A stretch of DNA of 64,000 nt from contig ARRA01000007.1 of the NCBI GenBank assembly GCA_000384935.1, positions 1-64,000 of the forward strand, in the 5' to 3' direction. Source of the DNA: a gamma proteobacterium SCGC AAA076-P13 (GTDB lineage Bacteria > Pseudomonadota > Gammaproteobacteria > Magnimaribacterales > D2472). Both the position numbers and the translations under genes were made by a program. Positions 15,994 to 56,957 of this stretch are shown here, one piece after another; the stretch's first letter is position 1, and each line of letters begins with the position of its first letter. A model generated the notes under the pieces. It saw nothing but the letters and a program-made list of their open reading frames with translations, made no database searches and had not been told where the DNA came from.

Positions 15994-17559
15994 ATGTTTA
16001 ATACATTAGATTGGATAATTGTTGGCACATATTGCTTGGGCATAATTTGCTTAGCTACATATGTTTCTAGAACTCAATCAGGAAAAGAAAGAAGTGCTGA
16101 AGATTATTTTCTTGCAGGAAGATCTCTTCCTTGGTGGGCAATTGGAGCCTCTTTAATAGCTGCAAATATATCTGCAGAACAAATTATAGGAATGTCAGGA
16201 CAAGGTTTTGTTGTTGGCATGGCTATTGCAGTTTGGGAGCTTACCGCAGCAATTGCGCTTATAGTAATGGCTAAGTTTTTCCTTCCCTTATTCTTAGAAA
16301 AAAGAATTTATACAATGCCTCAATTTTTAGAACAAAGGTTTGATAAAAGAGTTAGCCTTGTTTTATCATTTTTTTGGCTCGTTATTTATATTTTTATTAA
16401 TCTAACAACTGTTTTATGGTTGGGTTCTTTGGCGATAAACACTCTAACTGGCCTATCTCTTACTAATGGTTTAATTATTTTAGCGATTCTATCCCTTGCT
16501 TATTCCTTGTCAGGTGGTTTAAAAGCTGTAGCAATGACAGATATTATTCAAGTAGTTTTGCTTATATTTGGTGGTCTGGCAGTTTCCTTTATTGCCCTAG
16601 GAAAAATTTCTGAAGGCCAGGGGGTAATACAGGGTTTAAATATAGTCTATACAGAACTACCTGAGAAATTTGATATGATTCTATCCCCAGATAATCCCTC
16701 TTATCAGGATCTGCCTGGTATCTGGATACTAATTGGAGCTGGTGTATGGATTGGGCACTTTGCTTATTGGGGCTTCAATCAATATATTACTCAAAGGGCT
16801 CTTGGTGCAAAATCAATTAAAGAAGCACAAAAAGGTGTTATGTTTGCTGCTTATTTAAAACTCTTAATGCCCATAGTTATAGTTTTACCTGGTATATGTG
16901 CTGCTATACTTTTTCCAGTTTTAGAAAAATCAGATCAAGCATATCCTACGATGATGTCACTTTTACCAAATGGTCTTTTAGGTTTAACTTTTGCTGCTTT
17001 GATTGCGGCCATAGTCTCCTCTTTAGCATCAATGACAAACAGTATCAGTACTATATTCACAATGGATATATATAAAACTTTTTCAAGTAAAGATATTTCT
17101 CAAGCAAAATTAATTAGTACAGGCCGAAAAGCAGTAGTTGTGTCATTACTAATAGCAGTATTTGTAGCTAAGCCTCTGCTTGGCAGTTTTGATTCTATTT
17201 TTCAATTTATACAAAACTTTACAGGTTTATTTACTCCTGGAATATTAGTAATATTCTTAGTTGCTCTATTCTGGAAAAAAGCTACAACTCTATCAGTGCT
17301 AGTTGCAGCTATGTCATCACTTATATTATCCGCAGTGATGCTTAATCTTCTTCCGGATTTTTCATATATTCATAGAATGGGTATTGTATTTTTTGCCTCA
17401 GCATTTGGGTGTTATATAACTTCTTTAATTCAAGGATACCAAGACCAACCAAAAGCAATTGATTTAAAAGGTATTGATTTCAGTACTTCAAAATCATTTA
17501 ACTTTAATGCTGTAATTATTGTAGGTATTCTTACTATAATTTATGGAATATTTAGTTAA
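15994..17559 (+). CDS. Sodium:solute symporter, SGLT-like, probable glucose uptake
   Basis: This is a 521-residue SSS/SLC5-family transporter with about 13-14 membrane helices. The N-terminus has the family pattern SAEDYFLAGRSLPWWAIGASL followed by NISAEQIIGMSG, as in Vibrio vSGLT and its relatives. A good Shine-Dalgarno (GAGGGGA) precedes the ATG. Its place between eda and a beta-glucosidase with glucokinase downstream suggests that glucose released outside the cytoplasm is the substrate; other sugars are possible. Sodium coupling fits with the oadGAB sodium pump at the start of the window. Confidence 0.88.
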   Translation: MFNTLDWIIVGTYCLGIICLATYVSRTQSGKERSAEDYFLAGRSLPWWAIGASLIAANISAEQIIGMSGQGFVVGMAIAVWELTAAIALIVMAKFFLPLFLEKRIYTMPQFLEQRFDKRVSLVLSFFWLVIYIFINLTTVLWLGSLAINTLTGLSLTNGLIILAILSLAYSLSGGLKAVAMTDIIQVVLLIFGGLAVSFIALGKISEGQGVIQGLNIVYTELPEKFDMILSPDNPSYQDLPGIWILIGAGVWIGHFAYWGFNQYITQRALGAKSIKEAQKGVMFAAYLKLLMPIVIVLPGICAAILFPVLEKSDQAYPTMMSLLPNGLLGLTFAALIAAIVSSLASMTNSISTIFTMDIYKTFSSKDISQAKLISTGRKAVVVSLLIAVFVAKPLLGSFDSIFQFIQNFTGLFTPGILVIFLVALFWKKATTLSVLVAAMSSLILSAVMLNLLPDFSYIHRMGIVFFASAFGCYITSLIQGYQDQPKAIDLKGIDFSTSKSFNFNAVIIVGILTIIYGIFS

Positions 17560-41764: not shown

Positions 41765-42457
41765 ATGTCTAAAAAAATTCTAATCATTGAAGATGAACCT
41801 GATATTCGAAAGACAATTGAATACAATCTTGCAAGAGAAGGCTTCGAAATCTATACCGCAGCATCAATTGGAGAGGGCAGATCAATTCTTAATGATTCAT
41901 TCGCGTTACTAGTTTTAGATCTGATGCTTCCAGATGGCTCTGGTTTAGATTTATGTAGAGAAATTAAATCTAATAAAACCTTATCAAATATTCCTATTGT
42001 TATATTGACAGCAAAAGATGACGAGGTAGACAAAGTGGTTGGTTTTGAGCTGGGTGCAGATGATTATGTAACTAAACCTTTTAGTGTTCGAGAGTTAATT
42101 CTAAGAATTAAAGCCATCTTAAAAAGAGGTAATAAAGAAACTCATGAAACAGTAGAAATAGAACGTCAATTTGGAGATCTTGTTATTGATGTAGACTCTC
42201 ATGAGGTTTTTGTTAACAAAGAGCAAGTAGTATTGACTGCCTTGGAGTTTAGATTATTAAAACAACTTATTGACAGAAGGGGTAGAGTTCAGTCAAGAGA
42301 CCAACTTCTTTCAGATGTATGGGGTTATAGCTCAGATGTAACAACAAGAACTGTTGATACGCACATAAAAAGGCTTCGAGAAAAACTCGGATCAATGGGA
42401 AAATATGTGCAAACGATCAGAGGAGTTGGTTATAAATTTTCTAGAACGCCTGAGTAA
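41765..42457 (+). CDS. phoB: Phosphate-response regulator PhoB
   Basis: This OmpR-type response regulator has a receiver domain (residues 1-120, phosphoacceptor D52 in LLVLDLMLPDGSG, lysine in VTKPF) and a winged-helix DNA-binding domain (about 130-228, ALEFRLLKQLIDRRGRVQS and TRTVDTHIKRLREKLG). The effector domain and pairing with a PAS-containing kinase fit PhoB well. When phosphorylated by PhoR it should bind the Pho box at 44255-44283. It is 5 bp ahead of phoR. Confidence 0.92.
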   Translation: MSKKILIIEDEPDIRKTIEYNLAREGFEIYTAASIGEGRSILNDSFALLVLDLMLPDGSGLDLCREIKSNKTLSNIPIVILTAKDDEVDKVVGFELGADDYVTKPFSVRELILRIKAILKRGNKETHETVEIERQFGDLVIDVDSHEVFVNKEQVVLTALEFRLLKQLIDRRGRVQSRDQLLSDVWGYSSDVTTRTVDTHIKRLREKLGSMGKYVQTIRGVGYKFSRTPE

Positions 42458-42462
42458 AATAT

Positions 42463-44223
42463 ATGGGAATTAGATCCCGGATATTTTTAATTGTTTTCCT
42501 GTTATTAACAGTAAGCATTGCAATTACATATGTGGTTGCTGAGAGAGACCTAACTAGAACTTTTAAACTTCAAATAGTTGATGAACTAGAAAAACAAGCC
42601 AACCTTCTTGTTGCCTCAGTTGATAATCTCAATAAATTTTCTAATATAAATGATGCAGATAATGCAGCTAATGAATTAGGCAAAGCTTCAAATTCAAGAG
42701 TAACATTTATAACTAATAATGGTGACGTAATTGGTGATTCGCAACTAGAAATAGAGCAAATATCATCTCTTGATAATCATGCTTCAAGAGAGGAGTTTGT
42801 TGATGCCTTAAAAAACGGAAATGGGTGGTCGTCGAGGTACAGTAATACCCTTAATCAAGATCTTCTATATTTTGCAATTAAAGACAACCAAGAAATCAAC
42901 CCTAATATAATTAGAGTTGCAGTGCCTTTAAATTATCTGGATAAAATAACAGATACATTAGGTCTATCTGTTATTTTGCTATTTGCAGTTGTATTTATTG
43001 TGTCAATTATAGCAAGTGGTGTTGCTGCCAATTTTCTATATTCAAATATTCAGGATTTAGCTGAAGCGGCTAATAGTATCTCTAAAGGTGTTCTTAAAAA
43101 TGATAATTTGAAATTATTACCAACTCAAAGAGTTGATGAATTTGGCACGGTTGCCCGATCAATATCTCAAATATCTGAAGATTTAAAAAATCAAATAAAA
43201 ATGATTGCTAAACAAAGAGATCAATTTGGTTTAGTTTTAGATGATCTTGGAGAGGGTATTATTGTAACTAATAAAAAAGGTGACGTTGTTTTTACCAATG
43301 AGCAAGCATCAATTATTTTACATATAGACGATTTATCAAATACAAATATAAAAAAATTAGATATTCCAGCTCTTAATTATCTTTTTAAGAGAGTAAAAAA
43401 TAAAAAAAGTGCAGATATTGAATTTGAAATTGAAATAGATAACAAAAATACTCAATGGGTTCTTGGTTCAATGAATCAATCTAAGACCACTGGAGAATTT
43501 ATTTTAGTTGTTCATGATATAACCCAACTTCGTCAGCTTAACTCAATGAGAAGAGATTTTATATCGAACTTATCTCATGAATTAAGAACCCCTGTGAGTG
43601 TTATTAGGGCAAATTCCGAAACTCTGCTTGATGGCGCATTAGAAAATAAAAAGGATGCAAAGGTATTTGCTAAAGCCATCTTACATAACTCTGAAAGATT
43701 GTCGTTAATGGTTTCCGATTTAATAGATTTATCAAGAATTGAATATGGCGACTTGAAACTTAATATTGTTCCGATCGATCTTGATAGTTTTATCGAACCT
43801 TTTATTTTATCCATGGAAAGCCTCACAAAAAAGAAGGGCATTAATCTTACATACAAGCCAGCACATAAAACAAAAATTAAAGCTGATGTTCAGGCACTTG
43901 AAAGAATTTTAACTAATTTGATTGATAACGCCTTCAAGTACTCTCCTGAAGAATCTTTCATTGAGATCTCTACCAAGCAAGATGATAATAATGTAAGAGT
44001 TATGGTTTCTGATAATGGTATTGGAATTTCTGAAGCTGATAAAGGACATATCTTTGATAGATTTTATAGAGCTGCGTCGGCAAGAGCTTCACACAACAAA
44101 GGAAGTGGTCTAGGGCTGGCTATTGTAAAAAATCTGGTTAATAGTCTAAACGGAGAAGTTGGGGTTTCGTCTGGCTCATCTGAGGGCTCTATTTTTTGGT
44201 TTACATTGCCATCTGGGAAGTAG
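42463..44223 (+). CDS. phoR: Phosphate-regulon sensor kinase PhoR
   Basis: The 586-residue histidine kinase has a membrane helix at about 5-25, a periplasmic loop (26-165), a second helix at about 166-190, HAMP, a PAS domain (about 250-350), HisKA with phospho-acceptor H372 in SNLSHELRTP, and HATPase with NAFKYS, DNGIGIS and GSGLGLAIVKN. E. coli PhoR lacks a sizeable periplasmic loop; here it is ~140 residues, as in PhoR/PnpS of other lineages. No pst genes or phoU are present in the window, so signal input must come from elsewhere. The start follows phoB by 5 bp. Confidence 0.9.
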   Translation: MGIRSRIFLIVFLLLTVSIAITYVVAERDLTRTFKLQIVDELEKQANLLVASVDNLNKFSNINDADNAANELGKASNSRVTFITNNGDVIGDSQLEIEQISSLDNHASREEFVDALKNGNGWSSRYSNTLNQDLLYFAIKDNQEINPNIIRVAVPLNYLDKITDTLGLSVILLFAVVFIVSIIASGVAANFLYSNIQDLAEAANSISKGVLKNDNLKLLPTQRVDEFGTVARSISQISEDLKNQIKMIAKQRDQFGLVLDDLGEGIIVTNKKGDVVFTNEQASIILHIDDLSNTNIKKLDIPALNYLFKRVKNKKSADIEFEIEIDNKNTQWVLGSMNQSKTTGEFILVVHDITQLRQLNSMRRDFISNLSHELRTPVSVIRANSETLLDGALENKKDAKVFAKAILHNSERLSLMVSDLIDLSRIEYGDLKLNIVPIDLDSFIEPFILSMESLTKKKGINLTYKPAHKTKIKADVQALERILTNLIDNAFKYSPEESFIEISTKQDDNNVRVMVSDNGIGISEADKGHIFDRFYRAASARASHNKGSGLGLAIVKNLVNSLNGEVGVSSGSSEGSIFWFTLPSGK

Positions 44224-44254: not shown

Positions 44255-44283
44255 CTGTCACACAAATGTCACATAAGTGTTAC
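44255..44283 (+). promoter_or_regulatory. Three-repeat Pho box
   Basis: CTGTCAC, ATGTCAC and GTGTTAC begin at 44255, 44266 and 44277, exactly 11 bp apart with AT-rich 4-bp spacers. The E. coli consensus is CTGTCAT repeated at 11 bp, so this is a strong PhoB site. It lies 32 bp behind phoR and 31 bp before the small ORF at 44315, and 262 bp before gspC. Its orientation suits activation of the small ORF and possibly of the gsp genes behind it. Confidence 0.85.
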
Positions 44284-44314
44284 ATTAATGAAATACACAT
44301 ACTGGAGTGTTTTG

Positions 44315-44401
44315 ATGGTTAAGACAATATGGAAAAAATTTCATACTTTTATGAAAGCAGGAAGACTTAATAAGGTTGTAAAGATATCTGGCCTTAGATA
44401 A
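44315..44401 (+). CDS. 28-residue basic peptide directly behind a Pho box
   Basis: An ATG at 44315 follows GGAG by 7 bases. The 28-codon product starts MVKTIWKKFHTF and ends VVKISGLR, with eight Lys/Arg and no acidic residue, and could form an amphipathic helix. An in-frame ATG at 44288 would add nine residues but lacks a ribosome site. I do not recognise a family. The placement suggests a phosphate-starvation-induced peptide, or a leader peptide for the gsp operon. Without comparison to relatives the coding status stays uncertain. Confidence 0.5.
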   Translation: MVKTIWKKFHTFMKAGRLNKVVKISGLR

Positions 44402-44545
44402 GAGATTATTTTACCTATCTCGTTTAGTTTAAATATTTTTTATTTACCTTTTTAGTAAATAATTTATCATTCAATTTTTATTGAAATTATCACTTAAATA
44501 TTTAGCTACCATTATAAAATAAGCTACACTTAAAACATATTTTGT
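44402..44545 (+). promoter_or_regulatory. AT-rich leader before the gsp operon
   Basis: This 144-bp stretch contains a perfect 6-bp inverted repeat TTCAAT-TTTT-ATTGAA at 44470-44485, flanked by direct TTATCA repeats (44464-44469 and 44487-44492). A TATAAA at 44513-44518 may be a -10 for gspC. No GC-rich hairpin with a T tract is seen, so transcripts from the Pho box could read through into gspC. Confidence 0.35.
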
Positions 44546-44950
44546 ATGTTTAATTTTAAGTTAATAAAAAAGATTATAATTTTGGTTATCGCTATTCCAT
44601 CGATACTATTACTCATATTTTTTGGAACTCAGCTTAACATCAATCCAAAGATTAATAGTTTTGAAATACTCAATGTTGTAGATGTCAATGCATCTGGAAA
44701 TTCTCAAATCGAAGAGCTCAATAACGATTCAAGCAAACAATCAAATATATCCTTTCAATATAAATTAATTGGGTATCGGTCTGGTGGGTCTGACGCTTCT
44801 GTTATAGTAAAAAAATCTAATAAGGAATTTGTTGTATCTGTTGGACAAAAACTAGAGGGTGTCTTTGAGCTAATTGAAGTTAACCAAAATGAGGTAATTT
44901 TTAAAGATGGTGATAAATTATATAAAATTGAAAATTTAGTGGGTAAATAA
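44546..44950 (+). CDS. gspC: Type II secretion GspC, short form without PDZ domain
   Basis: GspC links the inner-membrane platform to the secretin. The 134-residue product has one N-terminal membrane helix (about 8-28) and a periplasmic homology-region domain (about 75-132, SFQYKLIGYRSGGSDASVIV and VSVGQKLEGVFELIEVN). The C-terminal PDZ or coiled-coil domain of longer GspC proteins (about 270 aa) is missing. Identification rests on the HR-domain pattern and on position before gspD, 1 bp away. Confidence 0.8.
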   Translation: MFNFKLIKKIIILVIAIPSILLLIFFGTQLNINPKINSFEILNVVDVNASGNSQIEELNNDSSKQSNISFQYKLIGYRSGGSDASVIVKKSNKEFVVSVGQKLEGVFELIEVNQNEVIFKDGDKLYKIENLVGK

Positions 44951-54750: not shown

Positions 54751-55589
54751 TATGTATCGTCACTATATTTAGTAATTATCATAAATTGTTCGTAGGTAAG
54801 ATTATCAAAACGAACTCCTTCAATACTTGCTGAATAATTAGATATAGCTTTCGACCATTTCACTGGCTTTAGTATTTTTTTATTTTCATAATCCATCTTA
54901 TTCAGAAGGTACCTTAAGGCTGTTAATCTACCTATCATCTTATTATTTGAATTAATCATTACCCATGGCGATAGCTCAGTAGCAGTTCTTGAAAACATTT
55001 GTTCTTTATAGAAAGTAAAAGCATCCCATTTAGTTACAATTTTTTCATCATTTTTAGATAGCTTCCAATATTTTAATTGAGAATTTTTTCTTGCATTCAT
55101 CCTTCTTTCTTGTTGATCTCTTGATAGTGAAAAATAAAATTTAGTAATCTCAACATTATTTAAAATATGATCTTCTTCCCACTTATTAACTCTATTCATA
55201 AATGTTCTATATTGATTTTCAGAACAATATCCCATAATTGGCTCTGTTATTGCTCGCGTATACCATGATCTGTCTAAGAATGAGATCTCACCATTTTGAG
55301 GTATAACTTTCCCCCATCTTTGAAACCAATGAGATGACTCCCATTTAGATGGAATTCCTAATTGAACATAGTTAAAATTATTAGGCCTCAAGTATTCAGA
55401 AAAGAATTTTATTGCAGAACTTTTTCCTGCAGTGTCTCTACCTTCAAATACAATGCATAACTTCCTATTATTTTTAATAACATCCTCTTGAAGCTTTAAT
55501 AATTCAATTTGAAGTCTTCTTTTTTCCAATGCGTATGCTTTGGCATGAAGTCTTTTGTATTCTGATTGATCTAAAGATATAAGATTCAT
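54750..55589 (-). CDS. ppk2: Polyphosphate kinase 2
   Basis: PPK2 enzymes transfer phosphate between polyphosphate and nucleotides. The 279-residue protein has Walker A GRDTAGKSSAIKFF, the middle segment SSHWFQRWGKVIP, Walker B and lid region FLDRSWYTRAITEPIMGYC, and the C-terminal KWDAFTFYKEQMF. It is a single-domain form, as in class I or III. The preferred nucleotide and direction (making GTP/ATP or polyphosphate) cannot be assigned. It overlaps the GppA/Ppx gene by 1 bp and is divergent from pit, with a Pho-like site between. Confidence 0.92.
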   Translation of the reverse strand: MNLISLDQSEYKRLHAKAYALEKRRLQIELLKLQEDVIKNNRKLCIVFEGRDTAGKSSAIKFFSEYLRPNNFNYVQLGIPSKWESSHWFQRWGKVIPQNGEISFLDRSWYTRAITEPIMGYCSENQYRTFMNRVNKWEEDHILNNVEITKFYFSLSRDQQERRMNARKNSQLKYWKLSKNDEKIVTKWDAFTFYKEQMFSRTATELSPWVMINSNNKMIGRLTALRYLLNKMDYENKKILKPVKWSKAISNYSASIEGVRFDNLTYEQFMIITKYSDDT

Positions 55590-55619: not shown

Positions 55620-55648
55620 GTAAATGTAAATTCACATGAATGTAACAA
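55620..55648 (-). promoter_or_regulatory. Pho-box-like repeats between ppk2 and pit
   Basis: On the minus strand TTGTTAC, ATGTGAA and CATTTAC recur at 11-bp steps (55648, 55637 and 55626 downwards). The first repeat resembles the GTGTTAC of the strong Pho box behind phoR; the others are weaker. Orientation favours ppk2, but the divergent pit gene (ATG 55695) could also use it. The sequence match alone is modest, and the phosphate gene context raises its likelihood. Confidence 0.4.
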
Positions 55649-55694: not shown

Positions 55695-56957
55695 ATGGAA
55701 AATTTATTCTTAGATCCTACACTTATCCTTATTATAGCGGCTTTTGCTGGGTTTTTCATGGCATTCGGAATTGGTGCAAATGATGTTGCTAATGCTATGG
55801 GAACATCTGTAGGAAGCAAGGCCATAACATTTAAGCAAGCTATATTTATTGCTGCTATCTTTGAATTTTTAGGCGCATATTTAGCTGGAGGTGAAGTCAC
55901 ATCAACAATTAGAAAAGGAATAGTCGATCCAGATCTCTACATAGGAAAAGAAAATATATTTATTATTGGAATGCTATCTGCATTATTGGCTGCAGGTACA
56001 TGGCTTCTAATAGCAAGCTCTAAGGGCTGGCCAGTATCTACAACGCATTCCATTGTTGGTTCTATAGTTGGGTTTGTAATAATATCAATGGGCTTTCAAG
56101 CCGTTTCTTGGGATAAAGTCGGAACCATTGCTGCTAGCTGGGTTGTCTCGCCTGCAATTTCAGGAACAATGGCATTTTTTATATTTTTAAGTGCTAAGAA
56201 ATTTATCCTAGATAGAAAAGATCCAGCACAAGCGGCTGTATCTTTAATACCTCTTTACAGTTTCTTTGTAGCTGTAATTATAGGTTTAGTTACTGCTAGA
56301 AAAGGCTTGAAACATGTAGGTTTGCCTCTCACTGATAATGAGGTTGTTTTAGTTACAATAGCATTTGGATTAGTTGTCACAGTAATTACATACATTCTTT
56401 TAAATATAAACAAAGAAAAAATTAAAAAGAATGGTGTTGAATCAGCTTTTGCTGTTCTTATGATAGTTACTGCATCAGCTATGGCCTTTGCTCATGGCTC
56501 AAATGATGTAGCAAATGCTATCGGTCCAATGTCTGCAATAATTAGCGTTGCATCAGAAGGAGCAATTGGAGCAAAATCAGCAGTTAGTCCCTGGGTTTTA
56601 TTGATTGGTGGAGTGGGTATAGTTTTTGGTTTGGCTATGCTGGGAGGTAGGGTTATCAAAACTGTTGGTAGTAAAATTACTACACTAACTCCTAGTTTAG
56701 GATTTTCAGCTGAGATGGCAGCCGCATCTACTGTTGTAGCTGCGACTTACATAGGATTTCCTATATCAACAACACATACGCTTGTAGGAGCTGTTATTGG
56801 GGTAGGTCTTGCTAAAGGTGTTTCTCATCTAGATCTGAGCTCTATAGGTAGAATCATCCTTTCTTGGGTAGTAACAATACCTGCTGGCGCTACATTAACA
56901 GTATTGTTTTATGTTTTATTAAGATTTATTGAAACCTTAATGACAGTAGGGGTTTAA
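55695..56957 (+). CDS. pit: Pit-type inorganic phosphate transporter
   Basis: This low-affinity phosphate permease (420 aa, about 10-11 helices) has the two inverted signature repeats GANDVANAMGTSVGSKAIT near residues 27-45 and AHGSNDVANAIGP in the second half, plus PVSTTHSIVGS and PISTTHTLVGA. An in-frame ATG with AGG about 9 bases upstream fits the start. Pit proteins are H+-coupled, while close PiT relatives use Na+. The usual upstream phoU-like gene (DUF47) is absent; polyphosphate genes are divergent instead. Confidence 0.93.
   Translation: MENLFLDPTLILIIAAFAGFFMAFGIGANDVANAMGTSVGSKAITFKQAIFIAAIFEFLGAYLAGGEVTSTIRKGIVDPDLYIGKENIFIIGMLSALLAAGTWLLIASSKGWPVSTTHSIVGSIVGFVIISMGFQAVSWDKVGTIAASWVVSPAISGTMAFFIFLSAKKFILDRKDPAQAAVSLIPLYSFFVAVIIGLVTARKGLKHVGLPLTDNEVVLVTIAFGLVVTVITYILLNINKEKIKKNGVESAFAVLMIVTASAMAFAHGSNDVANAIGPMSAIISVASEGAIGAKSAVSPWVLLIGGVGIVFGLAMLGGRVIKTVGSKITTLTPSLGFSAEMAAASTVVAATYIGFPISTTHTLVGAVIGVGLAKGVSHLDLSSIGRIILSWVVTIPAGATLTVLFYVLLRFIETLMTVGV

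Follow-up and report, generated by a model that had tools for sequence, protein, structure and literature searches.

In regulation of the MgrB-PhoQ type, a response regulator induces a small protein, which then acts back on the sensor kinase of that same system. SAR86 bacteria are among the most abundant in the surface ocean. In the genomes considered here, they carry PhoBR, but PhoU is undetectable and Pst is mostly missing.

Small proteins linked to the Pho system have been described before. DUF1127 small proteins, including YjiS of E. coli and SDP1-3 of Agrobacterium, bind to PhoR and dampen the Pho response (PMC12501420). YtfK of E. coli is a small protein tied to the PhoB regulon (PMC8600398). 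As for phages, host PhoB binds the cyanophage promoters of pstS, gp43, and uvsX (PMC10976474), and host pst and phoB go up on infection by pelagiphage HTVC027P (PMC12753301). What is new in the present analysis is an unnamed micropeptide family, common to SAR86 and, as judged from profile matches, 261 viral contigs.

The micropeptide locus

The window, that is, the whole 64,000-nucleotide stretch of DNA analyzed, contains adjacent phoB and phoR genes, whose best family matches are of the PhoB and PnpS/PhoR types, both under the equivalog cut-offs (Table 1). A sequence-only reading had pointed to three repeats at exactly 11 bp before a tiny ORF, to a proper ribosome site and a position right after phoR, and to a basic product of 28 residues. 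All of these observations were confirmed. The repeat units are TGTCACA (44256-44262), TGTCACA (44267-44273), and TGTTACA (44278-44284), the GGAG site occupies 44304-44307, phoR ends at 44223, and the peptide, MVKTIWKKFHTFMKAGRLNKVVKISGLR, has a net charge of +8. The ORF comprises 28 codons, from ATG 44315 to TAA 44401. In the window, its frame stays open in the 5' direction as far as TTG 44159. Since the open frame of relatives is mostly 29-57 aa, ATG 44315 is the likely start, and most relatives also have a purine-rich site upstream. By its layout, the gene is monocistronic.

Table 1. Positions of the features discussed, in window coordinates.
Feature	Position	Strand	Basis or remark
phoB response regulator	41765..42457	+	best match TIGR02154 PhoB 1e-69, under equivalog cut-off
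phoR sensor kinase; sCache-like, HAMP, PAS, HisKA, HATPase	42463..44223	+	TIGR02966 3.6e-71, under equivalog cut-off
Pho box, three TGTNACA units, period exactly 11 bp	44256..44284	+	sequence, shuffles, relatives
Shine-Dalgarno GGAG	44304..44307	+	7 nt 5' of ATG 44315
28-aa micropeptide gene, MVKTIWKKFHTFMKAGRLNKVVKISGLR	44315..44401	+	codon conservation, viral relatives
gspC-like gene, first of the type II secretion genes; neighbor outside the unit	44546..44950	+	weak match; gspD next
ppk2	54807-55589	-	domain matches
Weaker two-unit box, ppk2-pitA gap	55630..55647	+	supports the motif as a Pho box
pitA	55695-56930	+	domain matches

Within the window, a single site matches the three-unit pattern with zero mismatches, and shuffles yield 0.02 matches at up to three mismatches. 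In a genome-wide scan by pattern matching, the box of the window was the sole three-unit match at up to two mismatches in the 1.3-Mb genome, apart from its own 11-bp shift. Downstream of the peptide, an AT-rich stretch of 35-40 bp (44430-44466) shares 83-86% identity with other sites in several genomes of the same genus and could represent a small repeat or low complexity.

Conservation and coding status

Profile searches identified orthologs of the micropeptide in 24 of 107 SAR86-family genomes, distributed over three genera; these genomes are largely environmental assemblies, many of them incomplete. Synteny is kept at 20 loci, where the peptide lies between phoR and gspC/gspD. Codon conservation in relatives, which the sequence-only reading had named as a check, bears out coding selection: over 18 orthologs, the pooled pN/pS is 0.284 in frame, compared with 1.00 and 2.28 once the frame is shifted. 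Seven aligned relatives keep both box and ORF, with identical start, stop, and length, amid divergence of both flanks. The opposite pattern raised in the same reading, a frameshift behind a retained box, occurs at one of the 20 phoR-slot loci (G060), where the box is now directly followed by the gene of a secreted 94-aa protein. On these comparisons, the ORF is almost certainly a real micropeptide gene.

Elsewhere in Gammaproteobacteria (369 genomes), no credible homologs were found, and two weak matches in sister families look like chance. No Pfam or NCBIfam model fits the peptide, a sequence search of the PDB gave no match, and a PHROGs search returned weak matches only, with E above 0.03. 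An amphipathic antimicrobial helix was considered and dropped, as the helical moment of the peptide is not above that of shuffles.

Evidence for Pho control

The same type of motif is found independently of the peptide. Weaker 11-bp pairs precede pstS in two other genomes (G014 and G017), and the genome of the window has a poorer one. Weaker 11-bp pairs are also found in the pitA-ppk2 gap, where they are kept across most of the genus. For this reason, the TGTNACA motif can be regarded as a Pho box. The features by which Pho-regulon membership was judged, namely an upstream array of 11-bp repeats and genes for both PhoB and PhoR in the genome, are present. It is likely, given these sequence features, that the peptide is under Pho control, with PhoB presumably binding the box and inducing the gene.

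The earlier proposal of a translated basic peptide driven by a Pho box is thus supported by codon conservation, by a box kept amid diverging flanks, and by boxes of the same type at pstS and pitA-ppk2. The accompanying claim, that such a peptide falls outside the known Pho regulon, stands only in part: the family was not found among known ones, but small Pho-linked proteins are known (YtfK, PMC8600398; DUF1127, PMC12501420).

A further possible Pho target was noted in G001, a genome in which Pst is not detectable. There, a two-unit 11-bp box is located 5' of the gene of an exported 162-aa protein (L072:1480-1660).

Linkage with PhoR

Among the 107 SAR86-family genomes, PhoR is encoded in 81 and a full PstS in 3. 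PhoU (PF01895) was undetectable in all 107, while 13 of 14 control genomes were positive. The phoB-phoR loci of genera g1, g6, and g9 (L082-L111, L126-L132) were compared by phylogeny. In the tree of the PhoR kinase domain, sequences group by downstream cargo: the peptide-type g1 sequences join g6, and those g1 sequences that lack the peptide join the g9 sequences that lack it. Trees in which g1 or g9 is forced to stay whole are rejected by the AU test (p 0.0003 and 0.0005). The trees of phoB and of the upstream acyl-CoA ligase, which are quick trees with modest support, follow the genera. The peptide follows the PhoR allele and not PhoB. This split between the histories of phoR and cargo and of phoB and ligase suggests that phoR was exchanged between genera along with the cargo downstream of it. 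Such a joint exchange is consistent with a working pair, but it could also result from physical linkage alone. It was also observed that phoB, only a few bases 5' of phoR, tracks the genus tree despite the exchange of phoR and cargo.

In g9, the peptide occurs only alongside a short PhoR without a periplasmic domain. Most PhoR-bearing SAR86 genomes are without the peptide, and consequently it is not a general PhoU substitute. Binding of the peptide to PhoR, suggested in the sequence-only reading, is possible. Indirect support comes from the absence of PhoU, the split in the PhoR tree, the AU tests, the contrast with phoB and ligase, and the DUF1127 precedent (PMC12501420). The peptide could instead act at the membrane on a phosphate transporter or polyphosphate enzyme such as PitA or PPK2, whose genes lie about 11 kb away in the window and share the same box type; the predicted membrane tether of one viral form agrees with this. 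As co-segregation is with PhoR alleles, and pitA is also present in same-genus genomes that have no peptide, this target is improbable.

Next after phoR in other SAR86 clades (L131:4778-7729, L132:312-3275) come a gene for an exported protein of 984-987 aa without a Pfam match and then a TonB-receptor-like gene.

Relocated copies

Four genomes of one genus, which form a single derived clade on the PhoR tree, have gspC directly after phoR. In these genomes, the peptide is found elsewhere, beside a photolyase-related gene, at a distance of approximately 9-10 kb from phoR where both share a contig. The relocated copies retain TGTNACA pairs at 11 bp, and in L042 a terminator-like hairpin is located 3' of the peptide. 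Their unit spacing is partly irregular (11, 9, 9, 11 in L044), which makes PhoB control of these copies less certain. For the copies beside the photolyase-related gene, a LitR/CarH light-regulator box is a conceivable alternative.

The relocation bears on the earlier suggestion that the peptide is a leader whose translation controls the downstream gsp genes. Its position upstream of gspC in 20 loci agrees with such a role. However, the spacer between peptide and gspC is unconserved, the RNA fold is no better than that of shuffles (z -0.62), no Rfam match comes near the gathering score, and no gsp genes were found among the neighbors of viral copies at the best 80 viral loci. In the four genomes described above, phoR is followed directly by gspC with the peptide 9-10 kb off, a layout that rules out a gsp leader function; the suggestion, with a negligible probability, was abandoned.

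Viral relatives

When IMG/VR was scanned with the family profile, 474 pattern matches came up, 261 of which encode a relative (E-values are relative to the candidates), and the reversed-profile control gave 39 pattern matches and 0 relatives. SAR86 and viral sequences have the core [WF]xxFHx[FLI]MK[SA]GR[LI]NKV[VIC]K in common. Residues beyond the search pattern, the F before it and NKV[VIC]K after it, are kept too. Viral kinship of the peptide is therefore very likely. Most of the viral forms are free peptides, about 21-34 aa long, that start at an ATG of their own; ten unique forms are without a standard start. Neighborhoods were read for the best 80 viral loci, where copies follow regA or uvsX, lie antisense within the regA-hsp20 gap, or are near a terminase gene. 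Given these several contexts, either the core was acquired by phages on several occasions or it moves around in their genomes. Among cultured phages, a search of 50,697 phage records with four variants of the query turned up no credible match. Judged by RegA, the closest phage in culture is Pelagibacter phage Mosig, in which the core is absent near regA.

At 11 viral loci, the peptide takes a form of 51-55 aa that combines a predicted N-terminal membrane helix with the C-terminal core. This tethered form is preceded by three or four units at 11 bp (1-4 mismatches of 18) and is found on T4-like, Pelagibacter-phage-like contigs. Over all viral loci, 26 of 839,342 positions match at up to two mismatches, the boxes themselves included. 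For a form of 53 aa, the predicted fold (mean pLDDT 69, a low confidence) comprises a membrane helix at residues 3-24 and helices at 32-41 and 44-52, with a break at a conserved Ser-Gly. Membrane binding, which the sequence-only reading had raised, is possible in view of this viral helix, although the helical moment of the SAR86 peptide gives no sign of it. By its charge, the core of the tethered form should stay inside the cell. This argues against a secreted antimicrobial or signal peptide, an idea suggested by the short, cationic sequence with aromatic residues. With no signal sequence or processing genes seen and the helical moment mentioned above, such a role is very unlikely.

A second viral group has a box followed by genes for a secreted protein of about 100 aa and the peptide, with nearly overlapping stop and start. 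The box is perfect in L340 and weaker in L341 and L342. This two-gene cassette was found at viral loci L324:8713-9190 (the same as L340), L341, L342, and L343, as well as in SAR86 genome G060 (L134). The secreted protein of the viral cassette is 39% identical to that of G060 (E 2e-20), and the cassette is therefore common to host and virus. The boxes themselves suggest that PhoB may bind them. On a T4-like viral contig, 11-bp TGTNACA arrays, some of them perfect three-unit matches, precede a 379-aa replication-region gene and a short ORF (L286:14190-14230, 16603-16655).

Most viral copies are without a Pho box, and for this reason the main rival to the PhoR reading is a general takeover target. 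According to this alternative, the peptide binds a general component, for example RNA polymerase, the ribosome, or RNA, and thereby slows the cell down or reprograms it, which SAR86 would use in phosphate starvation and phages for takeover. It is favored by the strongly basic character of the peptide, by a core that is very constant over different phage contexts, and by the setting of most viral copies, which lie without a Pho box beside regA, hsp20, DNA polymerase, uvsX, or terminase; such a replication-operon setting suggests a broader target. However, the phoR slot, the host and viral Pho boxes, and the tethered viral form fit a membrane or phosphate target better, and a general target is considered possible but doubtful.

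Proposed function

In the proposed mechanism, low phosphate would lead PhoB-P to act via the three-unit Pho box, and the peptide would be made. The product would be a short basic linear-motif peptide, probably cytoplasmic and positioned at the inner membrane, where it may act on the machinery of phosphate sensing, with feedback on PhoR as the likeliest mode. A need for this input in SAR86 would arise from the lack of PhoU and, mostly, of Pst. This reading, a PhoB-induced inner-membrane peptide acting on phosphate sensing and most likely on PhoR, is put forward tentatively; PhoR as the specific target is a somewhat more tentative choice, and the location and direction of the effect are likewise inferred. 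Marine phages may use the peptide to hold the host phosphate programme in the state they need. The broadest version is unlikely, though conceivable: a starvation effector that takes the place of PhoU-type control of PhoR, or circumvents it, in streamlined ocean bacteria, and that several kinds of marine phage captured, some with a Pho-box promoter, to steer the host phosphate programme.

A Pho-boxed peptide that travels with phoR provides a concrete candidate input to phosphate sensing. That more than 260 viral contigs encode the core of this peptide, in some cases behind Pho-type boxes, points to a target that host and virus both want held in phosphate stress. The peptide is short enough for direct synthesis and testing.

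Comparison with known systems

DUF1127 proteins resemble the micropeptide in being very short, basic, and linked to phosphate metabolism, but there is no sequence relation between them. Membership in DUF1127 was considered and dropped, with no PF06568 match and a profile comparison probability of 0.2%, and no DUF1127 was found in the genome of the window. DUF1127 proteins are not known to occur beside phoR or in phages. YtfK is longer than the micropeptide and is reported to act on SpoT (PMC8600398); no family match connects the two. The cyanophage targets of PhoB are transporter and replication genes, whereas here the putative target, as the boxes suggest, is a micropeptide gene. MgrB is a membrane protein, whereas the SAR86 peptide is without a membrane helix and one viral form has a predicted one. 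By analogy with MgrB, feedback of the micropeptide on its sensor kinase is proposed.
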